NCBI RefSeq assembly: GCF_012273515.2 | Contig: NZ_CP050975.2 | Span: 186,001 to 250,000, forward strand | Length of the DNA stretch: 64,000 nt | Direction: 5' to 3' | Origin: Streptomyces sp. RPA4-2 | GTDB lineage: Bacteria > Actinomycetota > Actinomycetes > Streptomycetales > Streptomycetaceae | Shown: piece by piece, positions 1 to 52,085 of the stretch | How positions within the stretch are numbered: the stretch's first letter is position 1 | Layout of the letters: each line of letters starts with the position of its first letter | The notes under the pieces: generated by a model | Seen by the model: the letters and a program-made list of their open reading frames with translations, nothing else | Databases searched by the model: none | Told to the model about the DNA's origin: nothing | Program-made: the position numbers and the translations under genes

Positions 1-3000
1 CTGGGCGCAGCCCGCCGAGGTCGACGAGTCCGTAGTACGCGGTCAGGTAGACGATGGGCGCGGTGGCGGCCTGGGCGAAGGTCCAGCCGCGCGGGACGGC
101 GGCGACCATGCGTTCGTCGGCGACGGCGACGGGGCCGAAGGCTCCGGCGAACATGCCCATCACCCGGTCGCCGACGGCGAGTGAGGTGACGTCGGCACCG
201 GTCTCCGTCACCACGCCGGCGCCTTCCAGGCCGATCGCCGTGGCGTCGCCGGGATACATGCCGAGCGCGGTGAGGACGTCGCGGAAGTTGACGCCCGCGG
301 CGCGCATCGAGATGCGGACCTCGCGCGGTGCGAGGGGCCCTGTCACCTCGGGGCACGCGGTGAGCTTCAGGCTCTCCAGGGTTCCGCGTTCCTCGACGCA
401 GAGCCGCCAGGCGGCCGTGTCGGCGGGCTCGGTGAGCGCGCGCCGCACGTCGAGGGGGATGATCTTCGGTGTGGTCACCGTGCCTTCCCTGACGGCCAGT
501 TCGAGGTGGCCGGAGGCGAGGGCGGCGGGCAGCGCGGCCGCCGAGGCGGGCGCGGTGTCGAGGTCGGCGAGGACGAAACGGCCGGGGTTCTCGGAGCGGG
601 CCGAGCGGACCAGGCCCCAGGCGGTGGCGCGGGCCGGGTCGGCGGGCCGGGTTCCGACGCGCATGGCGTCGCGGGTGACGACCGCGAGCCGGGCGTGGGC
701 GAAGCGGGGTTCGTCGAGCCACTGCTGCACGAGCCGCAGTGTGGTGTGCGCGGTGGCGCGTGCGGCGGCGGCCAGACCGCCGGTGTGAGCGTCGGTGTCG
801 GTGTCCGTGTCCGTGTCCGTGTCGGGCAGGACCAGCAGGACGGTCTCGGGGATCTCGAGGTCCGAGGCGGCGAGCGCGGTCAGGTCGGGGAAGGCCCGCA
901 CCCGTGAGCCGGCCCGTTCCAGTTCCGCCGTCAGCGGCAGGGCTTCGGCGCCGCCGACCAGGGTCCAGTCCGTGCCGGGCGTCTGGGCGCTCGCGGACAC
1001 CGGCGCCCAGTCCAGTTCGTACAGGCCTTCCTGGCGCGGTGCGCCGATGGTGGCGCCCGCGAGGTCTCCGGTGAGTTCGCGCAGGGTGAGGGAGCCGACG
1101 GTGGCGACCGGGCGTCCCGTGGTGTCGGCGAGGGCCAGGCCGATCGACTCCGGGCCCGTCTGCACCATGCGCACCCGCAGGGCGTCGGCGCCGGCGGCCT
1201 CCAGGCGGACGTCGTTCCAGGAGAACGGCAGCCGGCCCGCGTCCTTCATGGGCACGAACATCACGGCGTGCAGGGCGGCGTCGAGCAGTGCCGGGTGCAG
1301 GTCGAACGCGTCGGCGGACGGGTCGGCGTCCTCGGGCAGCGCGACCTCGGCGAACACCTCCTCGCCGCGTGTCCACACCGACTTCAGGCCCTGGAAGAGC
1401 GGCCCGTACAGGTGGCCCCGTTCGGCGAACCGCTCGTAGAAGCCGTCGAGGGGTACTTCGTCGGCGTCCTGCGGCGGCCATGCGGTGAAGTCGTAGGGGG
1501 TTTCGGGCGTGGTCGTGGCGTCGGCGGTGAGCAGGCCGGAGGCGTGCAGCGTCCACGGTGTCTCGGGGCCGGCGTCCTCGGTCCGCGTGTGCACGGTGAG
1601 GGTGCGGGCGCCGTTCGCGTCGGCGGCCTCCACGTGCAGTTGTACGTGCAGGGCGCCGCTGTCGGGGAGGGTGAGCGGGGTGAGGATGGTCAGTTCCTCC
1701 ACCCGGTCGCAGCCGACGTGTTCGGCGGCGTGCAGGGCCAGGTCGAGGAAGCCGGTGGCCGGGAACAGGGCCGTGCTGGTGAGGGCGTGGTCCGCGAGCC
1801 AGGTCTGGCCGCGCAGCGACAGGCGTCCGGTGAAGAGGCGGGCGTCGCCTCCGGCCAGTTCGACCGCGGCACCGAGCAGGGGGTGCGCGGCGGGGTCCAG
1901 GCCCGCCGAGCCGACGTCGCCGAGCAGGACGGGCGGTCCGGGCCAGAACCGCTGCCGCTGGAAGGCGTACGTCGGCAGGGTCGTGGTCCGTGCGCCGGTG
2001 CTGTCGAAGACGTGGGCCCACTCGAGGTCGACGCCCTTGGCGAACGCCTGGGCCAGGCCGAGGAGCAGTGCTTCGCGCTCGGGGCGGTCCTTGCGCAGGA
2101 CGGGGACGAAGAGCATCTCGTCGCCGCCGGAGGCACTGGTCTGGGCGAGGGCGGTGAGGGTGCCGTCGGGGCCGAGCTCCACGAACCGGCGTACGCCGCG
2201 TCCTTCGAGCCAGGTGATCCCGTCGGCGAACCGTACGGCCTCCCGCACGTGGCGGACCCAGTAGTCGGCGGACTCCAACTCCCCCGCGCCGGCGGCCTGT
2301 CCGGTCACGTTCGAGACGACGGCCATACGGGCCGGCGTGTACGTCACGCTCTCGGCGACCGCACGGAACTCGGCCAGCATCGGTTCCATCAACGGCGAGT
2401 GGAAGGCGTGGGAGACCCGCAGGCGGGAGGTGCGGCGGCCCAGGGCCGTAATCTCCTGGGCGATGGCCTCCGCCACCGCTTCGACGCCGGAGATCACCAC
2501 CGAGCGGGGGCCGTTGACGGCGGCCACCGACACCTCCGTCTCCCGGCCCTCCAGCAGCGGGAGCACTTCGTCCTCGGCGGCTTCCAGCGCGAACATCGCC
2601 CCGCCGGAGGGAAGTTGCTGCATCAGGCGGCCGCGCGCCGACACCAGCCGGCACGCGTCCTCAAGGGAGAACACCCCGGCCACGTGCGCGGCGGCCAGCT
2701 CGCCGACCGAGTGGCCCACCAGGAAGTCGGGGCTCATCCCCCACGACTCCACCAGCCGGAACAACGCGACCTCGATGGCGAACAGTGCGGGCTGTGTCCA
2801 GCCCGTCTCGTTCAGGAGATCCGCGTCCTCGCCGAACACGACCTCGCGCAGGCCGTCGTCCAGGTGCGCGCAGACCGCGTCGAAGGCTTCGGTGAACACC
2901 GGGAAGGAGTCGTACAACTCCCGTCCCATACCGAGGCGTTGTGCTCCCTGGCCGGAGAAGAGGAAGGCGAGCTTGCCCTCGCCCCGGGCGGAGCCGGTCA

Positions 3001-4585
3001 CGGTGGAGGGGTTCGGCTCGTCGTCGGCCAGTGAGCGCAGGCCCTGGACGAGGGTGTCGTGGTCCTCGCCGAGGACGACCGCGCGGTGTTCGAAGACCGA
3101 GCGGTGCGCGGCCAGGGACAGGCCCACGTCGGCGGGGTCCGTCTCCGGCCGGTCGGTGAGGTGGGTGAGGAGCCTCTCGGCCTGGGCCCGCAGGGCGGTG
3201 CGGCTGCGGGCGGTCACGATCCATGGCACCGCGCCGCCGGCGGGGGCCGGTTCGGTGGCGGCGGGGGCGGGCGCGGGCTCCTCGCCGGTGGCGGCTTCGA
3301 GGATGACGTGGGCGTTGGTGCCGCTGATGCCGAAGGAGGAGACACCGGCGCGGCGGGGACGGTCCGTCCCGGGCCAGTCGACGGCCTCGGTCAGCAGCCG
3401 GACGTCGCCCTCCGTCCAGTCGACGTGGGTCGAGGGCTGGTCGACGTGGAGGGTGGCGGGCAGGACGCCGTTGTTCAGTGCCAGGACCATCTTGATGATC
3501 CCGGCGACGCCGGCGCCGGCCTGGGTGTGGCCGATGTTGGACTTGACCGAGCCGAGCCACAGCGGCTGTCCGGCCTCGCGGTCCTGGCCGTAGGTGGCGA
3601 GGACGGCCTGGGCCTCGATGGGGTCGCCGAGGGTGGTGCCGGTGCCGTGCGCCTCGACGGCGTCGACCTCCGCGGCCTTGACCCCCGCGTCGGCGAGCGC
3701 CGCGCGGATCACCCGTCGCTGGGCGGGGCCGTTGGGGGCGCTCAGGCCGTTGGAGGCGCCGTCCTGGTTGACGGCGGAGCCGCGGACGACGGCGAGGACG
3801 GGGTGGTTGTTGCGGCGGGCGTCGGACAGCCGCTCCACCAGGAGCATGCCGCCGCCCTCGGAGAAGCCGGTGCCGTCGGCGGCGTCCGCGAACGCCTTGC
3901 AGCGGCCGTCCTGCGACAGACCGCGCTGCCGGCTGAAGTCCACGAACAGGCCGGGTGAGGCCATCACGGTGACGCCGCCGGCGAGGGCGAGGTCGCACTC
4001 GCCGGAGCGCAGTGAGCGCACGGCCAGGTGCAGGGCGACGAGGGAGGCCGAGCAGGCGGTGTCGACGGTGACCGCCGGGCCCTCCAGGCCGAAGGTGTAG
4101 GAGAGCCGGCCGGAGACGACGCTGGCGGCGTTGCCGGTCAGCATGTAGCCCTCGAAGTCCTCCCGGGAGGCGGCCAGCATGCCGGTGTAGTCCTGGCCGT
4201 TGGTGCCGGCGAAGACGCCGGTGCGGCTGCCCTTCAGAGTCCTGGGGTCGATGCCGGCCCGCTCGAACGTCTCCCATGTCATCTCCAGCAGCAGCCGCTG
4301 CTGCGGGTCCATGGCGACGGCCTCGCGCGGGGAGATGTTGAAGAACGCCGGGTCGAAGCCGCTGGCGTCGTTCAGGAAGCCGCCGGTGCGGGTGTAGACG
4401 CTGCCGGGTTTTCCGGGTTCGGGGTCGTACAGCGCGTCGAGGTCCCAGCCGCGGTCCTCGGGGAAGGGGACGAGCCCCTCCTGGCCGTCGAGCAGCATGC
4501 TCCACAGCTGTTCGGGGGTGCTGACGTCGCCCGGGAAGCGGCAGCCCATGGCGACGACCGCGATCGGCTCGTCGTCCCGCGGGGG
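1..4585 (-). other. PKS module 10: KS-AT(malonyl)-DH-ER, cut by window edge
   Basis: KS10 (about 4585-3300) has DTACSASL around its active cysteine. AT10 (about 2965-2130) carries GHSVG and HAFH, the malonyl-CoA signature. DH10 (about 1910-1000) reads HALTSTALFP at about 1760-1789, so the usual glycine of HxxxGxxxxP is serine; HPALLDAALH and LYGPLFQG are intact. A linker with an Asp-Thr repeat leads to an ER whose AGVNFRDVLTALGMYP is at about 255-305. A KR and ACP are expected to the left but cannot be seen. If complete, the module adds a fully reduced acetate unit. Confidence 0.85.
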
Positions 4586-7500
4586 TACGGCGGGCTCGGA
4601 GGCCGGGGTGTCGGGCTGTTGCGTCCCGGCCAGCTCGGTCAGGAGGTGGCCGGCGAGGGCGTCGCAGTTGGGGTGGTCGAAGACGAGGGTGGCCGGCAGG
4701 CGCAGGCCGGTGATGCGGTTCATGCCGTTGCGCAGTTCGACGGCGCTGAGGGAGTCGATGCCCAGGTCGGTGAAGGGGCGGCCCGGTTCGACGGCCTCGG
4801 CGGACGGGTAGCCGAGGACATTGGCGACGTAGGAGCGGACGACGTCGAGGACGGCGCCGGCCCGGTCGTAGGCGGGCAGTTGGGCCAGGTGGGCCTGGAG
4901 GGAGGAGGCGTCCGCGGCGGGGCTCTCGGCCTGCTGGGTGCGGGCGGCGTCCAGGGCGCGGCGGGCGGCGGGCAGGTCGTCGAGGAGGTGGCTGGGGCGC
5001 GGTCCGGTGAAGGCGAGCGCGTAGGTGTCCCAGCGCAGGTCGGTGACGACGACGGTGGTGTCGTCGGCGTCCAGGGCGCGGCCCAGTGCGTCGCAGGCGG
5101 ACTTGGTGTCCATGGGGTGGACGCCGTAGCGGCGCATGCGGTCGCCGGCGGCGTCGCCGACCATGCCGCCGTCGGCCCACAGGCCCCAGGCGATGGCGGT
5201 GGCGGGCAGGCCCTGGGAGCGCCGGTGCTGGGCGAGGGCGTCGAGGTAGGCGTTGCCGGGGGCGTAGTTGCCCAGGCCCGCGCCGCCGAGGACGCCGGAG
5301 GAGGAGGAGAACAGGACGAACGCCGACAGGTCCAGGTCCTGGGTGAGTTCGTGGAGGTGCAGGGCGGCGGTGGCCTTGCCGCGCAGGACGGGGTCCATGC
5401 GCTCGGGTGTCAGGGAGTCGACGACGGTGTCGTCGAGGGAGCCGGCGGCGTGGAAGACGGCGTCCAGCGGGCGGTCGGCCGGGATCGAGCGGAGCAGGGC
5501 GTCCAGGGCGTCCCGGTCGGCGACGTCGCAGGCGGCGAGGGTGATGTCGGCGCCGAGTGCGGTGAGTTCGTCGCGCAGTGCGGCCGCGCCGGGGGCGTCG
5601 GCGCCGCGCCGGCCGGCCAGGACCAGGTGGGTGGCGCCGCGTCCGACGAGCCAGCGGGCGATGTGGCCGCCGAGGGCGCCGGTGCCGCCGGTGACCAGGA
5701 CGGTGCCACGCGGGTGCCAGGCCGGGGTGTCGGCGAGGGGGGCGGCGGCGTGGACCAGGCGGCGTCCGAAGGAGCCGGAGGGCCGGATCGCAATCTGGTC
5801 CTCGTCGCCGGGGGCGGCGAGGACGGCGCACAGGCGGGTGCCGGCCCGGCCGTCGAGTGCGGCGGGCAGGTCGACGAGGCCGCCCCAGCGTTCGGAGTGT
5901 TCCAGGGCGGCGACCCTGCCGAGGCCCCAGACGAGTGCCTGGACGGGGCTGGTGACGGTTTCGGAGGGGCCGACGGCGACGGCGCCGCGGGTGGCGCACC
6001 ACAGCGGGGCGTCGGTGTCGGTGTCACCGAGGGCCTGGAGGAGGGCGACGGTGCCGGCGAGGCCGTGCGGGAGCGCCGGGTGGTCGGGGTGGGGGCGTTC
6101 GTCGAGGGCGAGCAGGGACAGGACGCCCGCCACGGCGGGGGTGGCGTCCTCGGTGGTGAGGGCGGCCGTCAGGAGGGCGGCGAGGTGAGTGCGGTCGGTG
6201 TCGCCGTCGGGGACGGTGACCAGGCGGGTGTCGCGGGCGCCGCCGCCGGTCAGGGCGCGGTGGGCGTCGGCGACGAGGGCGTCGTGGATGCCGTCCGGGC
6301 CTGCTGGGGCGACGAGGAGCCAGGTGCCGGACAGGGCGCCCGCGGCGTTGTCGGTCAGCGGGGACCATCCGACGCCGTAGCGCCAGGAGTCCGTGGTGGA
6401 GCGTTCGCGGCTGGTGCGGCGCCAGGTGGACAGGGCCGGCAGGAAGGCGCTCAGCGGTGCGTCGGCGGGCAGGTCGAGGGCGTCGGCGAAGGCTTCCGGG
6501 TCTCCCTGGTCGACGGTCTCCCAGAAGCGGGACTCCACCGTGTCCGTGGCGGCGGTGACGGAGGAGGCGGAGGCGGAGGTGTCCCGCTCCGGCACGTGGG
6601 GCCAGTACCGCTGCTGCTGGAAGGGGTAGGTGGGTACGTCGACGCGGTGGGCGCCGGTGGCGGTGAAGACGGCCGTCCAGTCGAGGGCGACGCCGTTCAC
6701 GTGGGCCTCGGCGACGGAGGTGAGGAACTGGCCGAGGCCGCCCTTGTCGCGGCGCAGGGAGCCGAGCGCGGCGCCTTCGACGCCGGCGTCCTCCAGGGTC
6801 TCGCGCAGGCCGACGGCGAGCACGGGGTGCGGGCTGACCTCGATGAAGGTGCGGTGGCCTTCGGCGATCAGGCCGCGGACGGCCTCCTCGAAGCGGACGG
6901 TCTCGCGCAGGTTGGTGTACCAGTACTCGGGGTCGAGGGTGGTGGTGTCCTGCCACTGGCCGGTGAGGGACGAGCGGAAGGGGATCGCGGCGTCCTGCGG
7001 TTCGATGCCGGCGAGGGCGTCGAGCACGGTCGCGCGGATGGGTTCGACCTGCGGCGAGTGGGAGCCGTAGTCGACGGCGACCTTGCGGGCGCGTACGCCG
7101 TCCTCGGTGAGGGCGGTGAACAGTTCGTCGAGCGCGGCGGCTTCGCCGGACACCACCACCGAGGCCGGTCCGTTGACGGCGGCGACGGCGAGGCGGTCGG
7201 CCCACGGACTCATGCGGGCGCGGGTCTCGTCGGCGCTCAGCGGCACGGACATCATGCCGCCGGTGCCGGCGATGGCGACGATGGCCCGGCTGCGCAGGGC
7301 GACGATCCGGGCGCCGTCGTCGAGGGACAGGGCCCCGGCGACGCAGGCGGCGGCGATCTCGCCCTGCGAGTGGCCGACGACGGCCGCGGGGGTGATGCCG
7401 AGGGAGCGCCACAGGCCGGCGAGGCCGACCATGACGGCCCACAGGGCGGGCTGGACGACGTCGACCCGGCCGATGTCGGCCGCGTCCTCGTCGCCGCGCA

Positions 7501-10500
7501 GGACCGCGGTCAGGGACCAGTCGATGTGGGGGGCGAGCGCGCGTTCGCAGTCGGCGACGAGTGCGGCGAACAGGGGTGATTCGGTGAGGAGTTCGCGTGC
7601 CATGCCGGTCCACTGCGCGCCCTGTCCGGGGAAGACCAGGACGGGGTCGGCGGCGGTGGGCGCGGTGCCGGAGACGACGCCGGGTCCGGTGACGGGGGCG
7701 CCCGCGGCGAGGGCGGCGAGCGCCTCGTCGAGGGTGTCGCGGCCGGTGGCGAGGACGGCCGCCCGGTGTTCGAAGGCCGAGCGGGTGGTGGCCTGGGAGT
7801 AGGCGAGGTCGGTGAGCGGGGTGTCGGGGCGGGCGAGCAGGTGGGTGCGCAGGCGTGCGGCCTGGCTGCGCAGGGCGGCCTCGGTGCGGCCGGACAGCAG
7901 GGTCGGTACGACGGGCAGGGTGCCGGTGAAGACCGCGGTGTCCGGGGTCGCGGGCGGTGCGGTGGCCGTTTCGGGGGCGGGTGCCTGTTCGACGATGACG
8001 TGGGCGTTGGTGCCGCTCATGCCGAACGAGGAGACACCGGCGCGGCGCGGGCGCCCGGTCTCGGGCCAGTCCCGCTGTTGGTCGAGCAGGCGGACGTCGC
8101 CGGCGCTCCAGTCGACGTGCGGGGTGGGGTTGTCGGCGTACAGGGTGCGCGGCAGGACGCCCTCGCGGATCGCCATGACCATCTTGATGATGCCGCCGAC
8201 GCCGGCGGCGGCCTGGCTGTGGCCGATGTTGGACTTCAGGGAGCCCAGCCACAGGGGCCGGGCCTCGGGCCGGTCCTGGCCGTAGACCGCGATGAGCGCC
8301 TGGGCCTCGATCGGGTCGCCGAGGGTGGTGCCGGTGCCGTGTGCCTCGACCGCGTCGACCTCGGCCGGGGTGAGGCCGGCGCCGGCGAGCGCCTGGCGGA
8401 TGACGCGCTGCTGCGAGGGCCCGCTGGGGGCGGTCAGTCCGTTGGAGGCGCCGTCCTGGTTGAGGGCGCTGCCGCGGAGCACGGACAGGACGGGGTGGTG
8501 GTTGCGGCGGGCGTCGGAGAGCCGTTCGAGGACGATCATGCCGACGCCCTCGGCCCAGCTGGCGCCGTCGGCGTCCGCGGAGAACGGCTTGCAGCGGCCG
8601 TCGGGGGCGAGTGCGCGCTGGCGGCTGAACTCGATGAGGGAGCCGGGTGTGGACATCACGGTCACGCCGCCGGCGAGCGCGAGGGTGCATTCGCCCTGGC
8701 GCAGGGCCTGGGAGGCGAGGTGGAGGGCGACGAGGCTGGAGGAGCAGGCGGTGTCGACGGACACCGCGGGGCCTTCGAGGCCGAGGGTGTAGGCGATGCG
8801 GCCGGACAGCACGCTGGGTGAGTTGCCGGTGCCGACGTAGCCCTCGACGTTGTCGTCTGCGGCGGCCAGGATCGTGACGTAGTCCTGGTAGGTGACGCCG
8901 GCGAAGACGCCGGTGCGGCTGCCGCGTGCGGTGGCCGGGTCGATGCCGGCACGTTCCAGTGCCTCCCAGGACGTCTCCAGCAGCAGGCGCTGCTGGGGGT
9001 CCATGGCGAGGGCCTCGCGGGGGCTGATGCCGAAGAACGAGGGGTCGAACTGGCTGGCGTCGTGGAGGAATCCGCCCTCGCGGGTGTAGACGGTGCCCGG
9101 GTGGTCGGGGTCGGGGTGGTAGAGGGTCTCCGGGCTCCAGTTGCGGTCGCCGGGCAGTGGCGAGATGCCGTCGGCGCCGGCCACGACGAGGTCCCACAGG
9201 TCCTCGGGGCTGCGGACGCCGCCGGGGTAGCGGCAGGCCATGCCGACGATGACGATCGGGTCGTCGTCGGCGGACGCCGGGCGGCGGGTGGGGCCGTCGT
9301 CGTCGGTGGTGCCGCCGAACAGGTCGGCGTCGAGGTGCCGGGCGAGTGCGTGGGGGGTGGGGTGGTCGAAGACGAGGGTGGCCGGGAGGGCCACGCCGAG
9401 CGCGGTGCTGAGCGCGTCGCGCAGTTCGACGGAGGTGAGTGAGGTGAATCCGAGGGTGGAGAAGGAGTGGGCGGGCTCGATGTCGGTGGGGCCCTCGTAG
9501 CCGAGGACGTCGGCGACCTGGGTGCGCACGGTGGTGAGCAGGACGCGGGCGCGTTCGGCCGGGGGCCGGTTCGACAGCCGCTCCAGCAGGCTGCCGGGCT
9601 GCTGGGCGCGGGCCGCGGTGCGGCGGGCGACGGCCCGGGTGCGGGCGGGGGCGGGCCGGTCGGTGGTGGCGGGGGCGGCGGGGGCGCTCGTGTGGTGCGG
9701 GTCGAGGGGCCGCATCAGCAGGGAGGCGATGGTGAGGACGGGTTCGCCGATCGCGTCGGCGGCTTCCAGGGTCAGGGTGTCGGGGCCGCGGCGGGCGAGC
9801 CGGACGCGCAGGGTGGTGGCGCCGGTGGCCCGGAGCGAGGCGTCGGCGAGGGAGAACAGGACGCGGCCGTCGCCGAATCCGTCGAAGGTGCCCAGGCCGA
9901 GCGGGTGCAGGGCGGCGTCCAGGAGCGCGGGGTGCAGGTCGAAGCGTCCGGCCTCCTGCGTGGTGCCTTCGGGGAGGGCGACTTCGGCGTACACGTCCTC
10001 GCCGTGGGTCCAGGCGGCCCGCAGGCCCTGGAAGACGGGCCCGTAGTCGAGTCCCGCGGCGGCGAGCCGTTCGTAGACGCCGTCGACGTCGAGGGGTTCG
10101 GCGCCCGGGGGCGGCCAGGCGGTGAAGTCGAACTCCGGGGCGCCGGTTGTGCGTTCGGGGTGCCGGGTGCTCAACAGGCCGCCGGCGTGCCGGGTCCAGG
10201 GGCCGGCCGCGTTCAAGTTGTCCGGGTTGTTGAGGTTCTCGGGCCGGCCGTACACGCCGAAGACGCGGGAGCCCAGCGCGTCGGGTTCGGCGACCCGGAT
10301 CTGGAGGTGGACGCGGCCGTGTTCGGGCAGGACGAGCGGGGATTCGAGGACGAGTTCGCGTACGTGCCCGCAGTCGGTGTGGGCACCGGCGCGCAGGGCG
10401 AGTTCGAGGAAGGCGGTGCTCGGCACCACGACGGAGCCGTTGACGCGGTGGGCGGCGAGCCAGGGCTGCGCGTGGGCCGACAGGCGTCCGGTCAGGACGA

Positions 10501-13500
10501 CGGTGGCGCCCTCGGCGGGCGGGACGACGGCGCTCAGCAGCGGGTGGTCCGCGTCGAGGAGTCCGGCCGCGGCCGGGTCACCGGATCCGGTGGGTACGTC
10601 GAGCCAGAACGTGCGGTGCTGGAAGGCGTAGGTGGGCAGGGGTACGGGCCGGCCGCCGGGGGCGGCCGCGTCCAGGCAGGACTGCCAGTCGACCGGGACA
10701 CCGCGGGTGAACAGGGCGCCCAGGGCGGCGAGGAGGACGGCCGGTTCGGGGCGGTCGGCGCGCAGCGCGGGCACGGTGAGGTGACCGTGGGACTCCCAGC
10801 AGCCCTGGGCGAGGGTGGTGAGGGTGGCGTCGGGGCCGAGTTCGAGGCAGTGCTCGACGCCGTGGTGTTCCAGCCAGGCGATCCCGTCGGCGAAGCGGAC
10901 GGCCTGCCGGACGTGGCGCACCCAGTACTCGGGCGAGGTGAGTTCCCCGGCCTCGGCGGGCCTGCCGGTGAGGTCGGAGACGACCGGGATGCGCGGCTCG
11001 GCGTAGCCGATGCTTTCGGCGACGGCCCGGAAGTCGGCCAGCATCGGTTCCATGCGGGGTGAGTGGAAGGCGTGGCTGACGCGCAGCCGGGTGGTCTTGC
11101 GTCCCTGGCCCGCGAAGTGCGCGGCCACGGCGAGTACGGCCGGCTCGTCGCCGGCGACCACCACGGACCGGGGGCCGTTGAGGGCGGCGAGGCCGATCTC
11201 GTCCTCCCGCCCGGCCAGCAGGGGCAGGACCTCCTCCTCGGTGGCCTGCAGCGCGATCATGGCGCCGCCCTCCGGCAGGGCCTGCATGAGCCGGCCCCGG
11301 GCGGCGACCAGCCGGCACGCGTCGGGCAGGGTGAGGACGCCCGCGACGTGGGCGGCGGCCAGTTCACCGACGGAGTGGCCCAGGAGGTGGTGGGGCCGTA
11401 CGCCCCAGGACTCGACCAGGCGGTACAGCGCGACCTCGACGGCGAACAGGGCGGGCTGCGCGTACTCGGTGCGGTCGAGGAGGGCGGCGTCGTCACCGAG
11501 GACGACCTCGCGCAGCGGCTGTTCCAGCCGGCCTTCGAAGTGGCCGCACACGGCGTCGAAGGCGTCCGCGTAGACGGGGAAGGCGTCGTAGAGCTCGCGG
11601 CCCATGCCCGGCCGCTGGGTGCCCTGGCCGGCGAACAGGAACGCGGTGGTTCCCTCGGTCAGGGTGTCGCCGGTGACGGCGTCCGGGGAGGGTTCGCCCG
11701 CGGCGACGGCGGCGAGGCCGCGCAGGAGTCCGGTGCGTGCGGTGCCGCGGACCACGGCCCGGTGTTCGAAGCCGGGCCGGGTCGTCACCAGTGCGTGGGC
11801 GATGTCGGCGGTGTCGAGTGCGGGGTGCTCCTCGACGTGGGCCAGCAGGCGTGCGGCCTGTTCGCGCAGGGCGGCGGCGCTGCGGGCCGACACGATCCAC
11901 GGGGTCACCGTCTCGGCGGCGGGCTTAGAGCGGGCGGGTGCGGCGGGGGCGGCTTAAGCGTGTGCGGGGCCTGCTCGATCACGACGTGGGCGTTGGTGCC
12001 GGACACGCCGAAGGCGGAGACACCGGCGCGGCGCGGGCGGCCGGTGTCGGGCCACTGCCGCTGTTCGGTCAGCAGCCGGACGTCACCCGTGCTCCAGTCG
12101 ACGCGTGAGGAGGGCGCGTCGGCGTGCAGGGTCTGCGGGAGGACGCCCTGGTCGAGGGCGAGGACCATCTTGATGATGCCGGCGGCGCCGGCGGCGGCCT
12201 GGGTGTGGCCGATGTTCGACTTGACCGAGCCCAGCCACAGCGGCTGGTCGGCGGGGCGGTTCTGCCCGTACGTGGCGAGCAGTGCCTGTGCCTCGATGGG
12301 GTCGCCGAGGACGGTGCCGGTGCCGTGCGCCTCGACGGCGTCGACGTCGGCCGGGGTGAGGCCCGCGGAGGCGAGGGCGGCGCGGATGACCCGCTGCTGG
12401 GCGGGACCGTTCGGCGCGGTCAGTCCGTTGGAGGCACCGTCCTGGTTGACGGCGGTACCGCGGACGATGGCGAGGACGGTGTGGCCGCCTCGGCGGGCGT
12501 CGGACAGCCGCTCGACGACGAGGACGCCGACGCCCTCGGACCAGCCCGTTCCGTCGGCGCCGTCGGCGAACGCCTTGCAGCGACCGTCGGGTGCGAGACC
12601 TCCTTGGAGGCTGAACTCGACGAAGGCGCCGGGGTTCGCCATGACGGTGACGCCGCCGGCGAGGGCGAGGTCGCACTCGCCGGTGCGCAGGGACTGCACG
12701 GCCAGGTGCAGGGCGACGAGCGAGGAGGAGCAGGCGGTGTCGACGGTGACCGCGGGGCCTTCGAGACCGAGCGTGTACGCGACGCGGCCGGAGACGACGC
12801 TTCCGGCGCCGCCGGTCAGCAGGTGTCCGCCGAGGCCTTCGGGGACCTCGGTCAGGCCCGAGCCGTAGCCGGAGCTTCCGGCGCCGACGAAGACGCCGGT
12901 CCGGGTGCCCTTGAGGCCGGTCGGGTCGATGCCGCCGCGCTCCAGCGCCTCCCAGGACGTCTCCAGGATCAGGCGCTGCTGGGGGTCGATCGCGAGGGCC
13001 TCGCGGGGGCTGATGCCGAAGAACGGGGCGTCGAAGCCGGCGGCCTCCCGCAGGAAGCCGCCCGAGCGGGTGTCGCTGGCCGCGAGCAGGGTCTCCAGGT
13101 CCCAGCCGCGGTCCTCGGGGAATCCGGAGACCGTGTCGAGGCCGCCGGAGACGATCCGCCACAGCGCCTCGGGCCCGGCCACGCCGCCCGGCAGACGGCA
13201 GCCCATGCCGACGATGACGACGGGGTCGGTGTCGGTGACGGTGGCCGCCGGTGGCCGCGCGACGGTGTCGTCGCCGATGTCGGTGCCGAAGAGTTCGTCG
13301 CGCAGCCGGGCGGCGACGGCCAGCGGGGTCGGATGGTCGAAGACGAGGGTGGAGGGCAGCGGCACCCCGGTGGCGCCGGTGAGTTCGTTGCGCAGTTCGA
13401 CCGCGGTCAGGGAGTCGAAGCCGAGTTCACGGAAGGTCCGCCCGGCGGCGACGGCCGCGGTGTCGGTGTGGGCGAGCACGGTGGCGGCGCGCTCGCGGAC

Positions 13501-16500
13501 CAGGTCGAGCAGGGCCGTGTCGCGGTCCTCGGCCGGCAGCGGGCCGAGCCGTTCGCGCAGGGCGGCGCCCGCGCTCGTGGTGTCCGCCGCCGCTCCGGTG
13601 CCGCGCAGCGCGTCGGCGGCCTCCGGCAGTGCGGACAGCAGGGGGCTGGGGCGGCCGGTCGTGAACGCGGGAGCGAAGCGGTCCCAGTCGACGTCGGCCA
13701 CGACCACGGCGGTGTCGCCGAGTTCGAGGGCGCGGGAGAGGGCGCGCAGGCCCGCGTCGGGCTCCAGCGGCCGCAGTCCGCGGCGGCGCAGCAGGTCCTG
13801 GGCCTCGGCGTCGGCGGCCATGCCGCTCTCGCCCCAGGGGCCCCAGGCGACGGCGGTACCGGCAAGACCCCGGGCCCGGCGCCGCTCCACCAGCGCGTCG
13901 AGATGCGCGTTGGCGGCGGCGTACGCCGACTGCCCGCCACTGCCCCACACACCGGCGATCGAGGAGAACACCACGAACGCCGAAAGGTCCAAGTCCCGGG
14001 TGAGGGAGTCGAGATGGTCGGCGCCCGTAGCCTTCGCGGCCAGGACGGCGGCGACCCGCTCCGGAGTCAGCCGGTCGATCAGATCGTCGTCCAGCACACC
14101 CGCGGCATGGAACACCGCGTCGACCGGATACCGCGACAGCAGACCCGCGACCGCCTCCGCATCGGCCGTGTCACACGCCTCCACCACCACCCGCGCACCC
14201 AACTCCTCCAGCTCCTGGACGAGTTCGGCCGCACCGGGGGCGTCGATCCCACGACGGCTGGTGAGGACGAGCTCACTCGCACCCCGCCCCACCAGCCAAC
14301 GGGCCACCCGCGTGCCGAGCGCTCCGGTGCCGCCGGTGAGCAGCACCCGGCGGGGTGCGTTCCATCCGCCGCCCGCGTCGGCCGGGGCGGCGGCGTGGGT
14401 GAGGCGCCGGGCGAAGGCGGCGGTGCCGCGGACGGCGACCTGGTCCTCGGAGCCGTCGGCGACGACGGCGGCCAGCACGGCCAGGGCGCGGCGGTCGGGG
14501 CGGGCCGGCAGGTCGACGAGGCCGCCCCACCGGTCGGGGTGTTCCAGGGCGGCGACCCGGCCGAAGCCCCACAGGGCGGCCTGCGCCGGGTCGACGACGC
14601 CTTCGGACGGGGTGCCGACCGCTACAGCGCCGTGGGTGAGCTGCCACAGCGGTGCGGTCACTCCCGCGTCGCCCAGCGCCTGGACGAGGGTCAGCAGGGC
14701 GGCCGGGCCGGACGGGAACGCCAGGACGCCCGCGATCGGTTCGGTGTCGGCGGTGTCGGACAGGCCCGACAGGACGCCGGCCAGCGCGGCACGGTCCGCC
14801 TGCGGGTCGTACGTCACCCGCTCGGTCCCGGGCAGGAACTCCTCGATCCCCGCGAGCGTGTCCTCGCCGGCAGGCTGGAGCAGGAGTCGGCGGCCGGTGT
14901 CGGTCGCGGTGGGAGGGGTGACCGGCTGCCAGGCGACGCGGTAGCGCCAGCCGTCCACGCGTGAGCGCTCGGCCGCACCGCGCCGCCAGGCGGACAACGC
15001 CGGTACGACGGCGTCGAGTTCGGCCTCGTCCACGCCCAGGACCTCGGCGAGGTCGTGGGCGTCGCCGCGTTCCACGGCCGCCCAGAAGCTCGCGTCGAGC
15101 GGGTCGGCCGCCACGGGTCCGGCGGCAGCGGCGGGCTCGGGCCAGAACCACTCATGCTGGAAGGCGTAGGTGGGAAGGTCGACCGGCCGTGCGCCGGTGA
15201 GGAGGGCGGCCCAGTCGACGGCGGCACCGTGCGTGAACGCCCGCGACACCGCCGCCAGGACGGTGTCCGTCTCGGGGCGGTCCTTGCGCAGGACGGACGC
15301 GAACAGCAGGTCCTCGCCGCCGGAGACACTGGTCTGGGCGAGGGCGGTGAGGGTGCCGTCAGGGCCGAGCTCCACGAACCGGGTCACACCCCGCTCCGCC
15401 AGCGTGCGCACTCCGTCGGCGAACCGTACGGCCTCACGGACATGGCGGACCCAGTAGTCGGCGGACTCCAACTCCCCCGCACCGGCGGCCTGTCCGGTCA
15501 GGTTCGAGACGACCGCGATGCGGGCCGGCGTGTAGGTGACGCTCTCGGCGACCGTGCGGAACTCGGCGAGGATCGGTTCCATCAGCGGCGAGTGGAAGGC
15601 GTGGGAGACACGTAGACGAGAGGTACGGCGGCCCAGGGCGGCTATCTCCTGGGCGATGGCCTCCGCGACCGCTTCGACGCCGGAAATCACCACTGAGCGG
15701 GGGCCGTTGACGGTGGCGACGGACACCTCTGTCTCCCAGCCCTCCAGCAGCGGCAGGACCTCGTCCTCGGACGCCTCCAACGCGAACATCGCCCCACCGG
15801 CAGGAAGTTCCTGCATCAGACGACCCCGCGCCGACACCAGCCGGCACGCATCCTCCAACGAGAACACCCCCGCCACGTGCGCGGCGGCGAGTTCGCCGAC
15901 CGAGTGGCCCACCAGGAAGTCGGGGCTCATCCCCCACGACTCCACCAACCGGAACAGCGCCACCTCGATCGCGAACAGTGCGGGCTGCGTCCACCCCGTC
16001 TCGTTCAGCAGCCCCGCGTCCTCACCGAACACGACCCCCCGCAGACCCTCGTCCAGGTGCCCGCACGCCGCGTCGAAGGCCTCCGCGAACACGGGATACG
16101 CTTCGTACAACTCCCGCCCCATGCCCAGGTGTTGCGCGCCCTGGCCGGAGAAGAGGAAGGCGAGCTTGCCCTCGGTCGCGACGCCCTGGGCCACACCCGG
16201 CACGCTCTCGTCGCGGGCGACGGCGGCGAGGCCCGCGAGGAGTTCCTCACGGTCGCCGCCCCGGATCACCGCACGGTTGTCGAACGCCGACCGGGTCCTG
16301 ACCAGCGACAGACCCACGTCGGCGGGGTCCAGGTCGGGATGGGCCTGCGCATGAGCCAGCAGCCTGGCGGCCTGAGCGCGCAGAGCGGCGGGGCTCTGTC
16401 CGGAGACCACCCACGGGACGACGGGCAGCGCCGGAAGGATCGCGATGTCCGTGTCTTCGGCGGCCGTCTCCGCCTGTTCCAGCACCACGTGCGCGTTCGT

Positions 16501-19500
16501 GCCGCTCAGTCCGAACGAGGAGACACCCGCGCGGCGCGGACGGTCCGTCTCCGGCCAGTCCACCGCCCCGGCCAGCAGCCTGACCTCACCGGCTTCCCAG
16601 TCGACGTGCGACGAGGGTGCGTCGACGTGGAGGGTGGCCGGCAGGACACCGTGGCGCATCGCCTCCACCATCTTGATCACACCCGCCACACCGGCAGCAG
16701 CCTGCGTGTGACCGATGTTCGACTTCACCGACCCCAGCCACAACGGCCGCCCCGCGTCACGGTCCTTGCCGTAGGTCGCCAGCAACGCCTGCGCCTCGAT
16801 CGGGTCACCCAGTGTCGTGCCGGTGCCGTGCGCCTCGACCGCGTCCACGTCCAAGGCCGACAGACCCGCACTCGCCAAAGCAGCCCGGATCACCCGCTGC
16901 TGCGAAGGGCCGTTCGGTGCGGTCAGACCGTTCGACGCACCGTCCTGGTTCACCGCCGAACCACGTACGACGGCCAGCACCGGGTGACCGTTGGCGCGCG
17001 CGTCCGACAACCGCTCCACGAGCAGCACACCGACACCCTCACCCCAGCCCGTACCGTCCGCGCCTTCGGCGAAGGCTTTGCACAGGCCGTCGCCCGCGAG
17101 GCCGCCCTGGCGGCTGAACTCGATGAACGCGCCGGGGGTGGACATCACGGTCACGCCGCCGGCGAGTGCGAGGTCGCACTCCCCCGACCGCAGGGCCTGC
17201 GCGGCCAGGTGCAGGGCGACGAGGGACGAGGAGCAGGCCGTGTCGACGGTGACCGCGGGCCCTTCGAGGCCGAGGACGTAGGAGACCCGGCCCGAGAAGA
17301 CACTCGCCGCGTTGCCGGTGCCCACGTAGCCGCCGAAGTCACCCCCCGAGGACGCGAGGAGTGCCGGGTAGTCCTGGCCGTTCGTCCCCGCGAACACGCC
17401 GGTCCGCGAGCCGCGCAGCAGACGGGGGTCGATACCGGCCCGTTCCACCGCCTCCCACGACGTCTCCAGCAGCAGGCGCTGCTGCGGGTCCATGGCGAGC
17501 GCCTCGCGGGGTGAGATCCCGAAGAAGCCGGCGTCGAACGATCCGACGTCGCCCAGGAACCCGCCGCGGTGGGTGTGGCTGGTGTAGGGGCCGTCGAGTG
17601 CGTTGAGGGCGTCGAGGTCCCAGCCGCGGTTGCGGGGGAAGTCGGCGATGCCGTCGCGTTCCTCGGAGAGCAGGTTCCACAGTGTTTCCGGGGAGTCGAC
17701 TCCGCCCGGGAAGCGGCAGGCCATTCCGACGATCACGATCGGGTCGGCGGACACCTCGACACCGGTCGCGGTGGACGCGCCCGGAGTTTCCGCGACGACA
17801 CCGCTCAGCTCGCCGTGGAGGAAGTCGGCCAGGGCCGACGGAGTCGGGTAGTCGAAGACCACGGTGGCGGGCAGCCGTACCCCGCACTCCGCGCCCAGTA
17901 CGTTGCGCAGCTCCACCGCGATGAGCGAGTCCACGCCCAGTTCGCGGAAGGCGCGGTCGGCCGGAACCGCTTCCGGGCCGGCGTGACCGAGCACGGCGGC
18001 CGCGCGGGTACGGACCGTGTCGAGGAGTTCGGCGCGCTGGGCCGGTGCGGTCAGGCCGGTGAGGCGTGCGCGCAGGGCGGTCGCGGGGGCGGACGGTCCG
18101 GTCGTGTGCTGGGGGGCGGCATACAGTTCGCCGAGGAGCGGGCTGGTGCGGACGGCGGTGAAGGCGGGGCCGAACAGGGTCCAGTCGACGTCGGCGACGA
18201 AGGTGACCGGGGCCGGCGAGGCGGCGCAGACGGCGAGGGCGTCGAGGCCGGTCGCCGGGTCCAGGAGGTTGACGCCTCCGCGGCGCTGGCGGTCCTCGGC
18301 GGAGGCGTCGGCGGCCATGCCGCCGCCGGCCCAGGGGCCCCAGGCGATGGACGTGGCGGACAGACCCCGCGCACGGCGGCGTTCGGCGAGTGCGTCCAGC
18401 ATGGCGTTGGCCGCGGCGTAGTTGGCCTGGCCCGCGGAGCCGACGGTGCCGGCGAAGGACGAGAAGAGGACGAACGCCGAGAGGTCGCGCTCGCGGGTCA
18501 GTTCGTCGAGGTGGAGGGCGGCGGCGACCTTGGAGCGTACGACCGTGTCGAACTGCTCGGGGGTGAGCCGGTCGAGGACCCCGTCGTCGAGGACTCCGGC
18601 GGTGTGGACGACGGCGTCGACCGGGTGCTCGTCCAGTAGCTGCCGTACAGCCTCACGGTCCGTCATGTCGCAGGCGAGGAGGGAGACTTCGGCGCCCATG
18701 GCCGAGAGTTCGGCCTCCAGTTCGGCGGCGCCGGGTGCCTGCGCTCCGCGCCTGCTCGTGAGGACGAGACGGGTGGCCCCCTGTCCCGCGGCCCAGCGGG
18801 CCACCCTGGCACCGAGTGCGCCGGTGCCGCCGGTGACCAGGACCGTACCGCTGGGGGTCCAGGGGGTGCCGGGTTCCTCCGTGACCGCGACCAGGCGGCG
18901 GGCGAGGACACCCGCGGCGCGGACGGCGACCTGGTCCTCGTCGGCGCCGCCGCCGGAGAGCAGGGCGGCCAGTCGGGAGGCGGTGCGGCGGTCGAGTTCG
19001 TGCGGGAGGTCGATGAGACCGCCCCAGCGGTCGGGGTGTTCGAGCGCGGCCACGCGGCCCAGTCCCCAGACGGCGGCCTGGTCGAGGCGCGGGGGTACGT
19101 CGCCGCGGCCGGTGGTGACCGCTTCCCGGGTGAGGGTCCACAAGGGCGCGGTGATGTCGGTGTCGCCGAGTGCCTGGACGAGGAGGGCGGTGGCCAGGAC
19201 GCTTTCCGGGGTGGCGGTGTGTTCTCCCGGGGCCTGGGCCAGGGCCGAGACGACGCCGCTGACCGGGGTGCCGGCGGCCGCGGCGGCGAGCAGGCCGGCG
19301 AGCGTCGCGCGGTCGGCGTCGGCGGGGCATGGCACGGTGACGAGGTCGGTGGCGCGTGCGGCCAGGGCTTCGGTGAGGGCGCCGTCCCAGCCGTCGTCTC
19401 CGAGGGCGGCCGGGGTGACGAGCAGCCAGCGGCCGCTCAGTCGCGCCTCGGCGGGCAGGCCGGTCACGGGGCGCCAGGTCACCTGGTGGCGGTGGTCGCC

Positions 19501-22230
19501 TTCGGTGGTGGGCGCGGCGGAGCCGTCGGCCCGGTAGGAGCGTTCGAGCCAGTAGCGGTCCCGGCGGAAGGCGTAGGTGGGCAGGTCGACGCGTCCGGCG
19601 CCGGGGAGGAGGGAGTTCCACTCGGGCGTGCGGCCGTGCACGTGCAGGAGGCCGACGGCGGACGTCAGGGTCTCGGCCTCGTCCCGTTCCTTGCGGAGGG
19701 TGGGGGCGAAGAGCGCGTCGTGGCTGTCGGGCAGGCTGGTCTGGGCGAGGGCGGTGAGGGTGCCGTCCGGGCCGAGCTCCACGAACCGGGTGACACCGTT
19801 CGCGGCCAGCCACCCGATCCCGTCCGCGAACCGCACGGCCTCCCGGACGTGGCGGACCCAGTAGTCGGCGGACTCCAACTCCCCCGCGCCGGCCGCTTGT
19901 CCGGTCAGGTTCGAGACGACGGCGATGCGGGCCGGCGTGTAGGTGACGCTCTCGGCGACCGTGCGGAACTCGGCGAGCATCGGTTCCATCAGCGGCGAGT
20001 GGAAAGCGTGGGAGACACGCAGACGGGAAGTGCGGCGGCCCAGGGCGGCTATCTCCTGCGCGACCGCCGACGCCGCGGTCTCGACGCCGGAGACCACCAC
20101 CGAACGCGGACCGTTGACCGCGGCGACCGACACCCCGTCCGTCAACAGCGGCAGGACCTCGTCCTCGGACGCCTCCAGCGCGAACATCGCCCCACCGGAG
20201 GGAAGTTCCTGCATCAGACGACCCCGCGCCGACACCAACCGGCACGCATCCTCCAGCGAGAACACCCCCGCCACATGCGCGGCAGCGAGCTCACCGACCG
20301 AATGGCCCACCAGGAAGTCGGGCCGCACACCCCACGACTCCACCAGCCGGAACAACGCGACCTCGATCGCGAACAGTGCGGGCTGGGTCCAGCCCGTCTC
20401 GTTCAGCAGCTCGGCGTCCGCACCGAACACGACCTCCCGCAGACCCTCGTCCAGGTGCGCGCACACCGCGTCGAAGACCTCCGCGAACACGGGATACGCC
20501 TCGTACAACTCCCGGCCCATACCGAGACGTTGCGCGCCCTGGCCGGAGAAGAGGAAGGCGAGTTTTCCGTCGCCCTTCGTCGAGCCGGTGTGGACGCGGT
20601 CGGTGTGGTGGCCCTCGGCGAGGGCGGCGAGGCCGCTGAGCAGGTCGGCGCGGTCGGTCCCGAGGAGTGCGGCCCGCTCGGGGAGTGCGGCGCGGGTGGC
20701 GGCGAGGGACCAGGCGAGGTCGTAGAGGTCGGTGTCGGGGTGGTCGGTGAGGTGGGCGCTGAGGCGTGCGGCCTGTTCGCGCAGGGTGTGTTCGTCGCGG
20801 GCGGAGAGCACCCAGGGCAGCAGGGGCAGGCCGGCGCGGGCGGGAGCCTCGGTGGCCGGTTCGTCTGCGGGGGCCTGCTCGATGACGGCGTGGGCGTTGG
20901 TTCCGGAGACTCCGAAGGCGGACACGGCGCCGCGGCGGGGCCGGTCGGCCCGCGGCCAGTCGACGGACTCGGCCAGGAGCCTGACGTTGCCGGCGTTCCA
21001 GTCGACGTGGGAGGAGGGGTTGTCGACGTGGAGGGTGGGCGGGAGGACGCCGTGGCGGATCGCCAGGACCGTCTTGATGACGCCGACGACGCCCGCGGCG
21101 GCCTGGGTGTGGCCGATGTTGGACTTCACCGAGCCGAGCCAGAGGGGGCGGTCGGCCTCGCGGCCCTGGCCGTAGGTGGCGAGCAGGGCCTGGGCCTCGA
21201 TGGGGTCGCCGAGCGCGGTGCCCGTGCCGTGGGCCTCGACGGTGTCGATCTCGGTGGCGGGTACGCCCGCGCTCGCGAGGGCGGCGAGGATGACGCGCTG
21301 CTGGGAGGGGCCGTTGGGGGCGGTCAGTCCGTTGGAGGCGCCGTCCTGGTTGACGGCGGAGCCGCGGACGACGGCGAGGATGTGGTGGCCGTTGCGGCGG
21401 GCGTCCGAGAGCCGCTCGACGACGACGACGCCGACGCCCTCGGCCCAGCCGGTGCCGTCCGCGTCCTCGGAGAACGCCTTGCAGCGGCCGTCGGAGGCGA
21501 GGCCGCCCTGCTGGCCGAACTCGATGAAGGCGCCGGGGCTCGACATGACCGTCACGCCGCCGACGGCGGCGAGTGAGCACTCGCCGGAGCGCAGGGACTG
21601 TGCGGCCAGGTGGAGGGCGACGAGGGAGGAGGAGCAGGCGGTGTCGACGGTGATCGCGGGGCCTTCGAGGCCCAGGGTGTAGGCGACGCGGCCGGAGACG
21701 ACGGACATGGAGGTGCCGGTCAGCAGGTGGCCGCGGACGTCGTCGGGGACCTCTCGCAGTCCGCTGCTGTAGCCCTGGTCGCTGCATCCGACGAAGACTC
21801 CGCAGCGGCTGCCGCGCAGAGCGGCGGGGTCGATGCCCGCGCGTTCGAAGGCCTCCCAGGTCGCTTCGAGCAGCAGGCGCTGCTGCGGGTCCATGGCGAG
21901 GGCTTCGCGGGGTGAGATGCCGAAGAAGGCGGGGTCGAAGCGGTCGGCGTCGAAGACGAAGCCGCCCTGGTGGCGGGCGCCGCCGGTGGCGTCGGTGCCG
22001 AGGTCCCAGCCGCGGTCGGTGGGCCAGTCGGTGACCGCGTCGACTCCCGACACGAGCAGGTCCCAGAAGTCCTCGGGCGACCGGACACCGCCGGGCAGAC
22101 GGCAGCTCATACCGACGATGGCGACGGGTTCGTCGTCCTTGGACTCCAGCTGGCGGAGTTTGAGCCGGGTCTCGTGAAGGTCGACGGTGAGTCGTTTGAG
22201 GTAGTCCCGAAGCCGCGCTTCAGTTGTCAT
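1..22230 (-). CDS. Type I modular PKS, modules 6-10 (PKS3), partial, frame-broken once
   Basis: Multimodular polyketide synthase, cytoplasmic, extending the chain received from PKS2. ATG at 22230 begins MTTEARLRDYLKRL, a coiled docking helix, followed by KS at about residue 31; a longer upstream start adds only non-conserved residues. Order: KS6-AT-KR-ACP, KS7-AT-KR-ACP, KS8-AT-DH-ACP, KS9-AT-KR-ACP, KS10-AT-DH-ER and then the window edge. As written the frame closes with TGA at 11905-11907, soon after KS8, because of GCTTAAGC at 11952-11959. The same protein continues in the shifted frame, with no further stop, to position 1, where it reads PIVYLTAYYGLVDLGG of an ER domain. I treat it as one gene of at least 7,400 residues. 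It is separated from the futalosine-hydrolase-like gene by 178 bp holding an operator-like site, so it may have its own promoter. The C-terminus and any thioesterase lie outside. Confidence 0.9.
791..825 (-). repeat. Hexanucleotide repeat coding an Asp-Thr linker
   Basis: About six copies of a GTGTCG/GTGTCC hexamer (plus strand) code for alternating Asp-Thr in the DH-ER linker of module 10. It is in frame and probably a flexible linker prone to slippage. Confidence 0.8.
4650..9275 (-). other. PKS module 9: KS-AT(unusual YGSH)-KR-ACP
   Basis: KS9 (about 9275-7990) has DTACSSSL. AT9 (about 7640-6770) has GHSQG at 7371-7385, as in methylmalonyl-type ATs, but YGSH at 7058-7069 instead of the YASH of the other substituted-malonyl ATs here. 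KR9 (about 6390-5000) has LDD after HAAGS (B-type-like) and the catalytic YAPGN. ACP9 (about 4900-4640) carries LGIDSLSAVELR. No DH or ER lies between AT and KR. The predicted result is a beta-hydroxy unit with an alpha substituent. The exact extender is uncertain. Confidence 0.85.
9330..13220 (-). other. PKS module 8: KS-AT(malonyl)-DH-ACP, no KR
   Basis: KS8 (about 13220-11970) has DTACSSSL. The KS-AT linker holds GCTTAAGC and the frame break. AT8 (about 11650-10770) has GHSVG at 11366-11380 and HAFH at 11063-11074, so malonyl. DH8 (about 10570-9690) has HRVNGSVVVP, LDYGPVFQG and HPALLDAALH, so the catalytic residues look present. About 75 residues separate the DH from the ACP, far too few for a KR. 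ACP8 reads LGFTSLTSVELR near 9440, with Thr in place of the normal Asp before the phosphopantetheine Ser. The expected product is a 3-keto unit, for which this DH has no ordinary substrate. Confidence 0.9.
11952..11959. other. GCTTAAGC at frame break in PKS3 (KS8-AT8 linker)
   Basis: On the minus strand the frame coming from KS8 reads HTLKPPPPH and then runs out of frame. The downstream AT8 frame meets TAA inside this 8-mer. Reading GCCGGC here (two bases fewer) gives an uninterrupted linker, HTPAAPAAPARSKPAAETVT. A related 9-mer, GCTTAGAGC, lies at 11923-11931 in the same linker. Confidence 0.85.
13280..17745 (-). other. PKS module 7: KS-AT(malonyl)-KR-ACP
   Basis: KS7 (about 17745-16480) has DTACSSSL. 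AT7 (about 16170-15260) has GHSVG at 15895-15909 and HAFH at 15592-15603 (malonyl). KR7 (about 14980-13590) has HAAGVLDDDL and a Trp eight residues before the catalytic Tyr of YAAAN, a B1-like pattern. ACP7 (about 13510-13280) carries LGFDSLTAVELR. There is no DH. Predicted: a beta-hydroxy acetate unit. Confidence 0.9.
17800..22140 (-). other. PKS module 6: KS-AT(malonyl)-KR-ACP
   Basis: KS6 (about 22140-20880) has DTACSSSL. AT6 (about 20565-19650) has GHSVG at 20293-20307 and HAFH at 19999-20010 (malonyl). KR6 (about 19500-18110) has HTAGVLDDGVL (B-type-like) and YAAAN. ACP6 (about 18020-17800) reads LGVDSLIAVELR. No DH. Predicted: a beta-hydroxy acetate unit. The DNA of the AT6, AT7 and AT10 regions is strikingly alike. 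Confidence 0.9.
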
Positions 22231-22331
22231 GGACTGCCCCCATGCTGTTGTGGTGAGAAAGGGTCGCGCCTCGTGCGGCTTGGACAGCATGTCCCGGGGG
22301 TGGGCCGTTTCCGTGGCCCTGGCCGGGTTGT

Positions 22332-22347
22332 CTGGGGAAACCCTTGG
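22332..22347. promoter_or_regulatory. Operator-like site upstream of PKS3
   Basis: CTGGGGAAACCCTTGG lies about 100 bp upstream of the PKS3 start. From memory, the published PAS-LuxR (PimM-type) operator is CTVGGGAWWTCCCBAG; this site matches 13 of 16 positions. It resembles the GGGGAATTCC sites at 52176 and 56745. Function is inferred from similarity and position only. Confidence 0.4.
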
Positions 22348-22408
22348 AAATCATCACCGCAGGCCGGGGACGTGGCCGCGGACACGGCGAAGCGGCGGTC
22401 GGAGCCGC

Positions 22409-23156
22409 TCAGGTGTACGGGGGTGGATCGCCCTTCTCCAGGACGGTGCGCAGGACGGAGAAGGCCTCCTGAAGGGCGGTGAGGGCCTCGCCGATGCGCC
22501 AGGCCGAACGGTCGCGGGGGCCGACGGCGTTGGAGACGGTGCGGATCTCCAGTACGGGTGTGCCGTGCGCGGCGGCCGCTTCGGCGACGCCGAAGCCCTC
22601 CATGGCCTCCGCGCCGGCGTCGGGGTGGGCGTGTGCGAGGACGCGGGCGCGTGCGGCGGTGCCGGTGGCGGTGGAGACGGTCAGGACGGGGGCGTGGGTG
22701 GCGCCGAGGGCGCGGGCCACGGCGGTGGCGAGCCGGGGCGGGCAGGCGTGGGTGGTCCTGCCGAAGCCGAGGGTGTCGACGGGGAGGAAGCCGCCCGGGG
22801 AGTCGGCGCCGAGGTCGGCGGCGACGATGCGGTCGGCGACGACGGCGGCGCCGACGGGTGCCTGGGGGCGAAGCCGCCGCCGATGCTTAAGCGGCGATGA
22901 CGAGGTGGTAGGGCTCGTCGCGCAGGGCCGCGGCGGTGAGTGCGGCGCCGGTGGCGGCCGCGGCGGCAGCCGGGCCGACGCCCCCGGCGAGCAGGTCGGC
23001 GCGCAGCGGGCCGGGGGCGGTGCCGTCGCCGGTGCGTCTGAGGACGTAGCCGGGCAGGGCGTGTTCGGCGGGGGGTGCGGCGGGCTCGAGGCCCCGGGCG
23101 GCGGCTTCGCGTTCCGCGGTGACGGCGGTCACCACGAGCAGCCGTACGGGGGTCAT
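22409..23156 (-). CDS. mqnB: Futalosine hydrolase-like nucleosidase, frame broken twice as written
   Basis: Resembles MqnB, which removes the base from futalosine in the futalosine menaquinone pathway; I see no pathway partners nearby. ATG at 23156 overlaps the rmlA stop by 4 bp (ATGA), so translation is probably coupled. Visible family segments: LLVVTAVTAEREA near the N-terminus, GGVGPAAAAA, LVIAA followed in another frame by GIGGGFAP, then APVGAAVVADRIVAADLGA, LPVDTLGFGR, EAMEGFGVAEAAAAHG and VSNAVGPRDRSAWRIG. As written it stops at a TAA inside GCTTAAGC (22885-22892). Reading GCCGGC there, plus one extra C in the C-run at 22864-22868, restores a protein of about 248 residues, normal for the family. 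This is either a true pseudogene or, more likely to me, a sequence-quality effect. Its place inside a PKS operon is odd; it could serve another nucleoside substrate. Confidence 0.75.
22885..22892. other. GCTTAAGC at frame break in the futalosine-hydrolase-like gene
   Basis: On the minus strand ATC-GCC-GCT-TAA stops the gene in its most conserved glycine-rich segment. Replacing the 8-mer by GCCGGC gives ATC-GCC-GCC-GGC-ATC-GGC-GGC-GGC, which is IAAGIGGG, the expected family motif. Confidence 0.85.
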
Positions 23157-24220: not shown

Positions 24221-24325
24221 AGTTCCATCCAGGTGACGAGTAGCTGGTCGGCCGGTGGTCGCCGGGGCGTCCACGCGGCCGGGTGGGGTGGGGCGGCCGC
24301 CCTGCCGGACGGCCGCCCCCGTGGG

Positions 24326-39489: not shown

Positions 39490-52085
<12,596 letters not shown>

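Follow-up and report, generated by a model that had tools for sequence, protein, structure and literature searches.

The window analysed here, a stretch of 64,000 nucleotides from the contig of Streptomyces sp. RPA4-2, contains three copies of the eight-letter word GCTTAAGC, and at each of them a minus-strand reading frame breaks. This raises the question of whether two modular polyketide synthase (PKS) genes and a futalosine hydrolase gene are actually interrupted in this organism or whether the word is a mistake in the assembled sequence. The features to which the text refers are the following (positions are those of the window).

11952..11959, no strand assigned: GCTTAAGC, site 1, in the KS/AT linker of a modular PKS, at the frame break between ORF 11908-22350 and ORF 2-11953
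22885..22892, no strand assigned: GCTTAAGC, site 2, within the futalosine hydrolase gene; two bases fewer in five of five relatives
22859..22868, no strand assigned: second indel at site 2, one base short compared with five of five relatives; adjoins a run of five G
50701..50708, no strand assigned: GCTTAAGC, site 3, in the KS/AT linker of a modular PKS; lies in a near-tandem repeat of about 20 bases, in its 3' copy
50575-50600, 50619-50645 and 50732-50756: predicted G-quadruplex motifs by site 3
11923..11931, no strand assigned: GCTTAGAGC, at a distance of 29 bases from site 1; may be the same kind of error rendered differently
50680..50688, no strand assigned: GCTTGAAGC, counterpart of site 3 in the 5' copy of that near-tandem repeat, perhaps another rendering
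2..22350, minus strand: modular PKS gene, two frames joining at site 1; may extend past the window
22412..23156, minus strand: futalosine hydrolase gene, broken at site 2
39493..52175, minus strand: modular PKS gene, two frames joining at site 3

Occurrence of the word in the window and in the genome

Exact counting confirms that GCTTAAGC is present at these three positions and absent from the remainder of the window, as had been noted by eye, compared with 0.04 expected occurrences; none of 100 shuffled versions of the window yields three copies. The frame breaks described in the initial annotation are likewise real features of the deposited letters, as the minus-strand ORFs switch frame at all three copies (at site 3 from ORF 50706-52175 to ORF 39493-52128). 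Pfam assigns a ketosynthase to one side and an acyltransferase to the other side of sites 1 and 3, and both pieces of the gene broken at site 2 match futalosine hydrolase in NCBIfam, the first of them far under the curated cut-off. The futalosine hydrolase gene adjoins a gene for glucose-1-phosphate thymidylyltransferase (window 22412-24325), and a match across both is found in 5 of 391 same-genus genomes.

The window comes from a single contig of 9,860,181 bases which carries 95 copies of GCTTAAGC, compared with 0 to 10 copies per genome in 391 others of the genus, 149 of which were covered by a second count too. Such specificity for a strain or lineage is what is expected of a nanopore error mediated by base modification. 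For the site statistics given below, 73 of the 95 copies were located and their surroundings fetched, the other 22 being left out. The fetched sequence of this genome amounts to 655 kb, composed of the window, the flanks of the sites and six background stretches, and is biased towards sites; a small unbiased subset of 250 kb comprises sequence not chosen for sites, and 288 kb were available from relatives. Within the 655 kb, TTAA flanked by GC on both sides occurs 73 times, as opposed to one or two occurrences for each of the other four-letter AT words between two GC, while the 288 kb of relatives' sequence contain no GC-flanked TTAA.

The closest pair among the 73 sites is 258 bases apart, and the base 3' of the word is enriched in A (29% vs 12%) and depleted in T (6% vs 12%). 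Twelve of the first 50 copies lie within 189 kb near one contig end (C1:186000-375000), a clustering matched in a fraction of 0.0005 of 2000 random placements over 3.9 Mb, and five neighbouring pairs are less than 2.5 kb apart, where 1.6 are expected.

Evidence that the word probably stands for GCCGGC

Comparison of the surrounding letters with repeats and relatives makes it very probable that the three copies of GCTTAAGC are errors of the assembly consensus which stand for GCCGGC. The initial annotation had favoured just such a systematic error at certain GCCGGC sites, and the genome-wide counts, repeat copies, relatives and the depletion of GCCGGC around the sites all speak for it. In a dispersed hairpin repeat, GCTTAAGC is found in three copies (L052, L061 and L065), while a further copy (L039) reads GCCGGC in matching local context. 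Relatives could be aligned across ten of the 73 sites, no spanning alignment being obtained for the other 63. By best alignment, the genome under study has a surplus of two bases at seven of the ten, and at an eighth (L049_4001) in comparison with genome G013. Exactly GCCGGC is found in a relative at three sites (L038, L048 and L049_4001). The alignment at L049_12945 is of low complexity with many gaps, and at L041_6046 a two-base loss adjoins the gain. Finally, GCCGGC occurs only 18 times within 150 bases of the sites where 59 occurrences are expected, a ratio of 0.31 which is the lowest among the 64 GC-only hexamers (the next being 0.54). Repeat copies, relatives and depletion alike show the errors to be centred on this one short motif. 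The hairpin repeat, whose arms resemble CGCCGGACGGGCTGA, was observed in L016, L038, L039, L052, L054, L059, L061, L064, L065 and L070.

Reading frames provide a further measure. With a coding signal on both sides on one strand, the implied true length is divisible by three at 16 of 25 sites compared with 285 of 302 judged control GCCGGC, so that a plain 6-mer leaves a residual frame disagreement at 9 of 25 sites and 17 of 302 controls. In a stricter frame test, which judged six sites, the shift was 2 at four sites and 1 at two, the latter being copies of one repeat, but never 0, whereas control GCCGGC gave a shift of 0 in 484 of 488 cases; a clear coding signal was absent at 36 of the 73 sites and confined to one side at 31. 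Frequent occurrence of GCTTAAGC in intact genes, the result by which the error reading could have been refuted, was looked for as well and did not show: the word is in frame at 5 of the 25 two-sided coding sites, the other 48 of the 73 sites being unjudgeable in this way. Two sites lie in a repeat of 1,370 bases which is 99.9% identical between its copies at about 3.0 and 8.8 Mb (L043 3109-4478 and L074 9945-11314). By eye, the GCTTAAGC of each copy appears to be a real gene end with a start codon after it. Both sites were kept in the counts; if the repeat is counted once, the residual frame disagreement becomes 8 of 24.

The claim that replacement by GCCGGC repairs all three genes of the window holds in part. 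At sites 1 and 3 it agrees with the frame arithmetic of a 6-mer, although the alignment of these PKS linkers to relatives is unreadable base by base; at site 2 a 6-mer is at odds with the implied length. There, all five relatives lack two bases of the 8-mer and have one additional base about 20 bases away. Because of this second indel the replacement alone would lose the frame again, and in none of the five relatives is exactly GCCGGC found at site 2. A scan of contigs with a query which followed the frame given by the replacement alone, instead of the downstream frame, returned three distant loci and was discarded. Taken at their most likely meaning, the three gene breaks are sequencing mistakes and the genes are probably unbroken by GCTTAAGC. 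Hence, the word gives no ground for calling the PKS genes and the futalosine hydrolase broken, and a check is called for at about 95 places in this genome. GCTTAAGC is most likely an artefact and not part of the biology of the organism.

Given the spacing of at least 258 bases among the 73 sites, neighbouring GCCGGC must take other renderings, and several candidates for these are at hand. Both related words mentioned in the initial annotation, GCTTAGAGC at 11923 and GCTTGAAGC at 50680, are present. The former has 14 copies on both strands of this genome; each of 36 genomes of the genus has no more than 4, and genomes of the same order have up to 9. The latter has six other copies on both strands of the fetched sequence, all of which are at least 624 bases from a site. 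A third candidate is GGTAGC, which at L041 stands opposite GGGCCGGC. Each of the three is a single case, and only some such forms were found. GTAAGC is enriched near sites (9 vs 2.1), while TAA-like words show no general excess there (1.44 vs 1.37 per kb). Genome-wide, GGTAAGC occurs 232 times, marginally the highest count among 61 genomes (229 in the next). At the two alignable GTAAGC near sites or predicted quadruplexes, the relatives read GGCGGC and GGCGAC, not GCCGGC.

Predicted G-quadruplexes around the sites

GCCGGC alone is no marker of a site, as it is intact at 17,390 places in this genome. What marks the sites is their nearness to predicted G-quadruplexes together with extremes of GC content. 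A predicted G-quadruplex motif lies within 100 bases of 43 of the 73 sites but of only 27 of 600 control GCCGGC taken more than 1 kb from any site. The difference is retained at a local GC content of 0.75-0.79, where 17 of 31 sites and 31 of 293 controls have such a motif within 100 bases. In the set biased towards sites, the share of GCTTAAGC in the sum of GCCGGC and GCTTAAGC amounts to 0.45 in the first 25 bases from a motif and to 0.61 in the next 25, then declines to 0.23 at 50-100 bases, 0.10 at 100-200, 0.03 at 200-400 and about 0.01 farther away. For the unbiased 250 kb this share is 2 of 20 near a motif compared with 4 of 455 far from one (p 0.023). The remaining 30 of the 73 sites are without a motif within 100 bases, among them site 1 and site 2 of the window, whose nearest motifs are 1116 and 307 bases away.

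If the composition near predicted quadruplexes is compared with the prediction from relatives, GCCGGC is found 77 times instead of 134, GCTTAAGC 44 times instead of never and GTAAGC, on either strand, 19 times instead of once. Thus, the 57 missing GCCGGC are approximately matched by 62 odd words, GCTTAAGC and GTAAGC taken together. Other GC palindromes near these motifs range from 0.87 to 1.46 of expectation. Far from the motifs GCCGGC is slightly low too (1,207 vs 1,401). Hairpin stability does not mark the sites (mean -28.8 vs -28.1; in GC-matched windows the stability is lower by 3.2).

The same stretches carry other indels. At predicted quadruplexes with no GCTTAAGC within 300 bases, frame disagreement is seen in 16 of 82 cases in this genome compared with 9 of 122 in relatives (p 0.015), while elsewhere this genome and the relatives are about equal (60 of 988 and 90 of 1556, respectively). 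Additional indel errors in the same patches are expected of a hybrid assembly left unpolished there, and they were found at the coding sites, at predicted quadruplexes and at site 2. The assembly thus seems to have local weak patches at predicted quadruplexes.

Base modification as a probable cause, and alternatives

Short reads probably fail at G-quadruplexes. We consider it probable, though with less assurance than the error itself, that base modification causes the consensus error at GCCGGC. The consensus would derive from single-strand long reads, most likely nanopore reads, in which GCCGGC would be miscalled owing to a modification in this strain, for which one of its cytosine methyltransferases may be responsible. 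One strand may have been called as GTAAGC, so that the other would appear as GCTTAC, and the union of both in the consensus would give GCTTAAGC. Polishing with short reads may then have repaired GCCGGC nearly everywhere except where these reads dropped out. The genome encodes four cytosine-5 methyltransferases, the gene of one of which adjoins that of a Vsr-like nuclease, and one HsdM-like protein; PF01555 has no match in it. The names given to relatives of the four methyltransferases, among the best 120 of about 8,000 matches each, contain no pointer to specificity for GCCGGC.

A variant of the same consensus error dispenses with modification and supposes that this k-mer defeats the base caller or the polisher in stretches of extreme GC content. 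The sites do follow predicted quadruplexes and GC extremes, and the bias in the base 3' of the word is of the kind that a k-mer effect would give. Yet the effect is met in none of the 391 other genomes of the genus, some of which were probably sequenced alike, which points to something in this strain or data set. We regard the variant as a possible but rather unlikely cause.

Far less probable is that the word is a linker left where pieces were joined or gaps closed, an explanation which had been put forward alongside the consensus error. Although it could account for one word recurring at dispersed places, some of them in tandem repeats, and for the clustering described above, relatives align contiguously through both flanks at all ten sites with a spanning alignment, which makes contig joins unlikely, and in repeat copies which otherwise match locally GCTTAAGC takes the very place of GCCGGC. 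Least credible of all is a real change, in which some process acting on the whole palindrome would rewrite GCCGGC to GCTTAAGC near G-quadruplexes in this strain: the link to predicted quadruplexes is strong, and a clear two-sided coding signal is missing at 67 of 73 sites (612 of 1,100 control GCCGGC), a scarcity which selection against broken genes would produce but which the GC-extreme setting may explain too, while indels of other kinds occur in the same kind of stretch and we know of no process that makes this exchange.

Returning to modification as the probable cause, motif-specific nanopore errors have been attributed to base modification for which the base caller was untrained (Chiou et al. 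2023, PMC10687267). The errors reported there, in Listeria, lie at GCAGC or GCTGG and number 1,533 to 5,670 per genome, mismatches being the main kind; they survive long-read polishing and were recognised by comparison with hybrid assemblies that include short reads. They resemble the present case in being centred on one short motif and present in only some strains of the species. They differ from it in kind, since GCTTAAGC represents mainly a gain of two bases at GCCGGC, at about 95 places and near predicted G-quadruplexes. Two further studies report that nanopore assemblies of actinomycetes contain bases without Illumina cover, more of them at higher GC content (PMC11260486), and that persistent homopolymer errors need short-read polishing, some preparations giving regions of low depth (PMC9980784). 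Unlike what is seen at the GCTTAAGC sites, neither a motif error nor a link to G-quadruplexes is described in the passages concerned. A literature search for GCTTAAGC together with nanopore gave no match. GCCGGC is absent among the matches listed for a systematic nanopore error at this motif, and the titles listed for Streptomyces with TTAA or nanopore methylation basecalling contain nothing on a GCTTAAGC error. The matches for GCCGGC, Streptomyces and methyltransferase are unrelated, judged by title and the start of the abstract.

These observations suggest that a finished assembly may carry the fingerprint of a probable modified motif which is visible without the reads, and that predicted G-quadruplexes may mark the places where such errors survive, which could be used for the screening of public assemblies.

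We would like to mention that in C1:6112001-6146000 (L130, L131) the genes of a cytosine-5 methyltransferase, a Vsr-like nuclease, a HATPase protein and a helicase with an Mrr domain are found together, with the HsdM-like protein encoded nearby. This region is perhaps a restriction or defence island.
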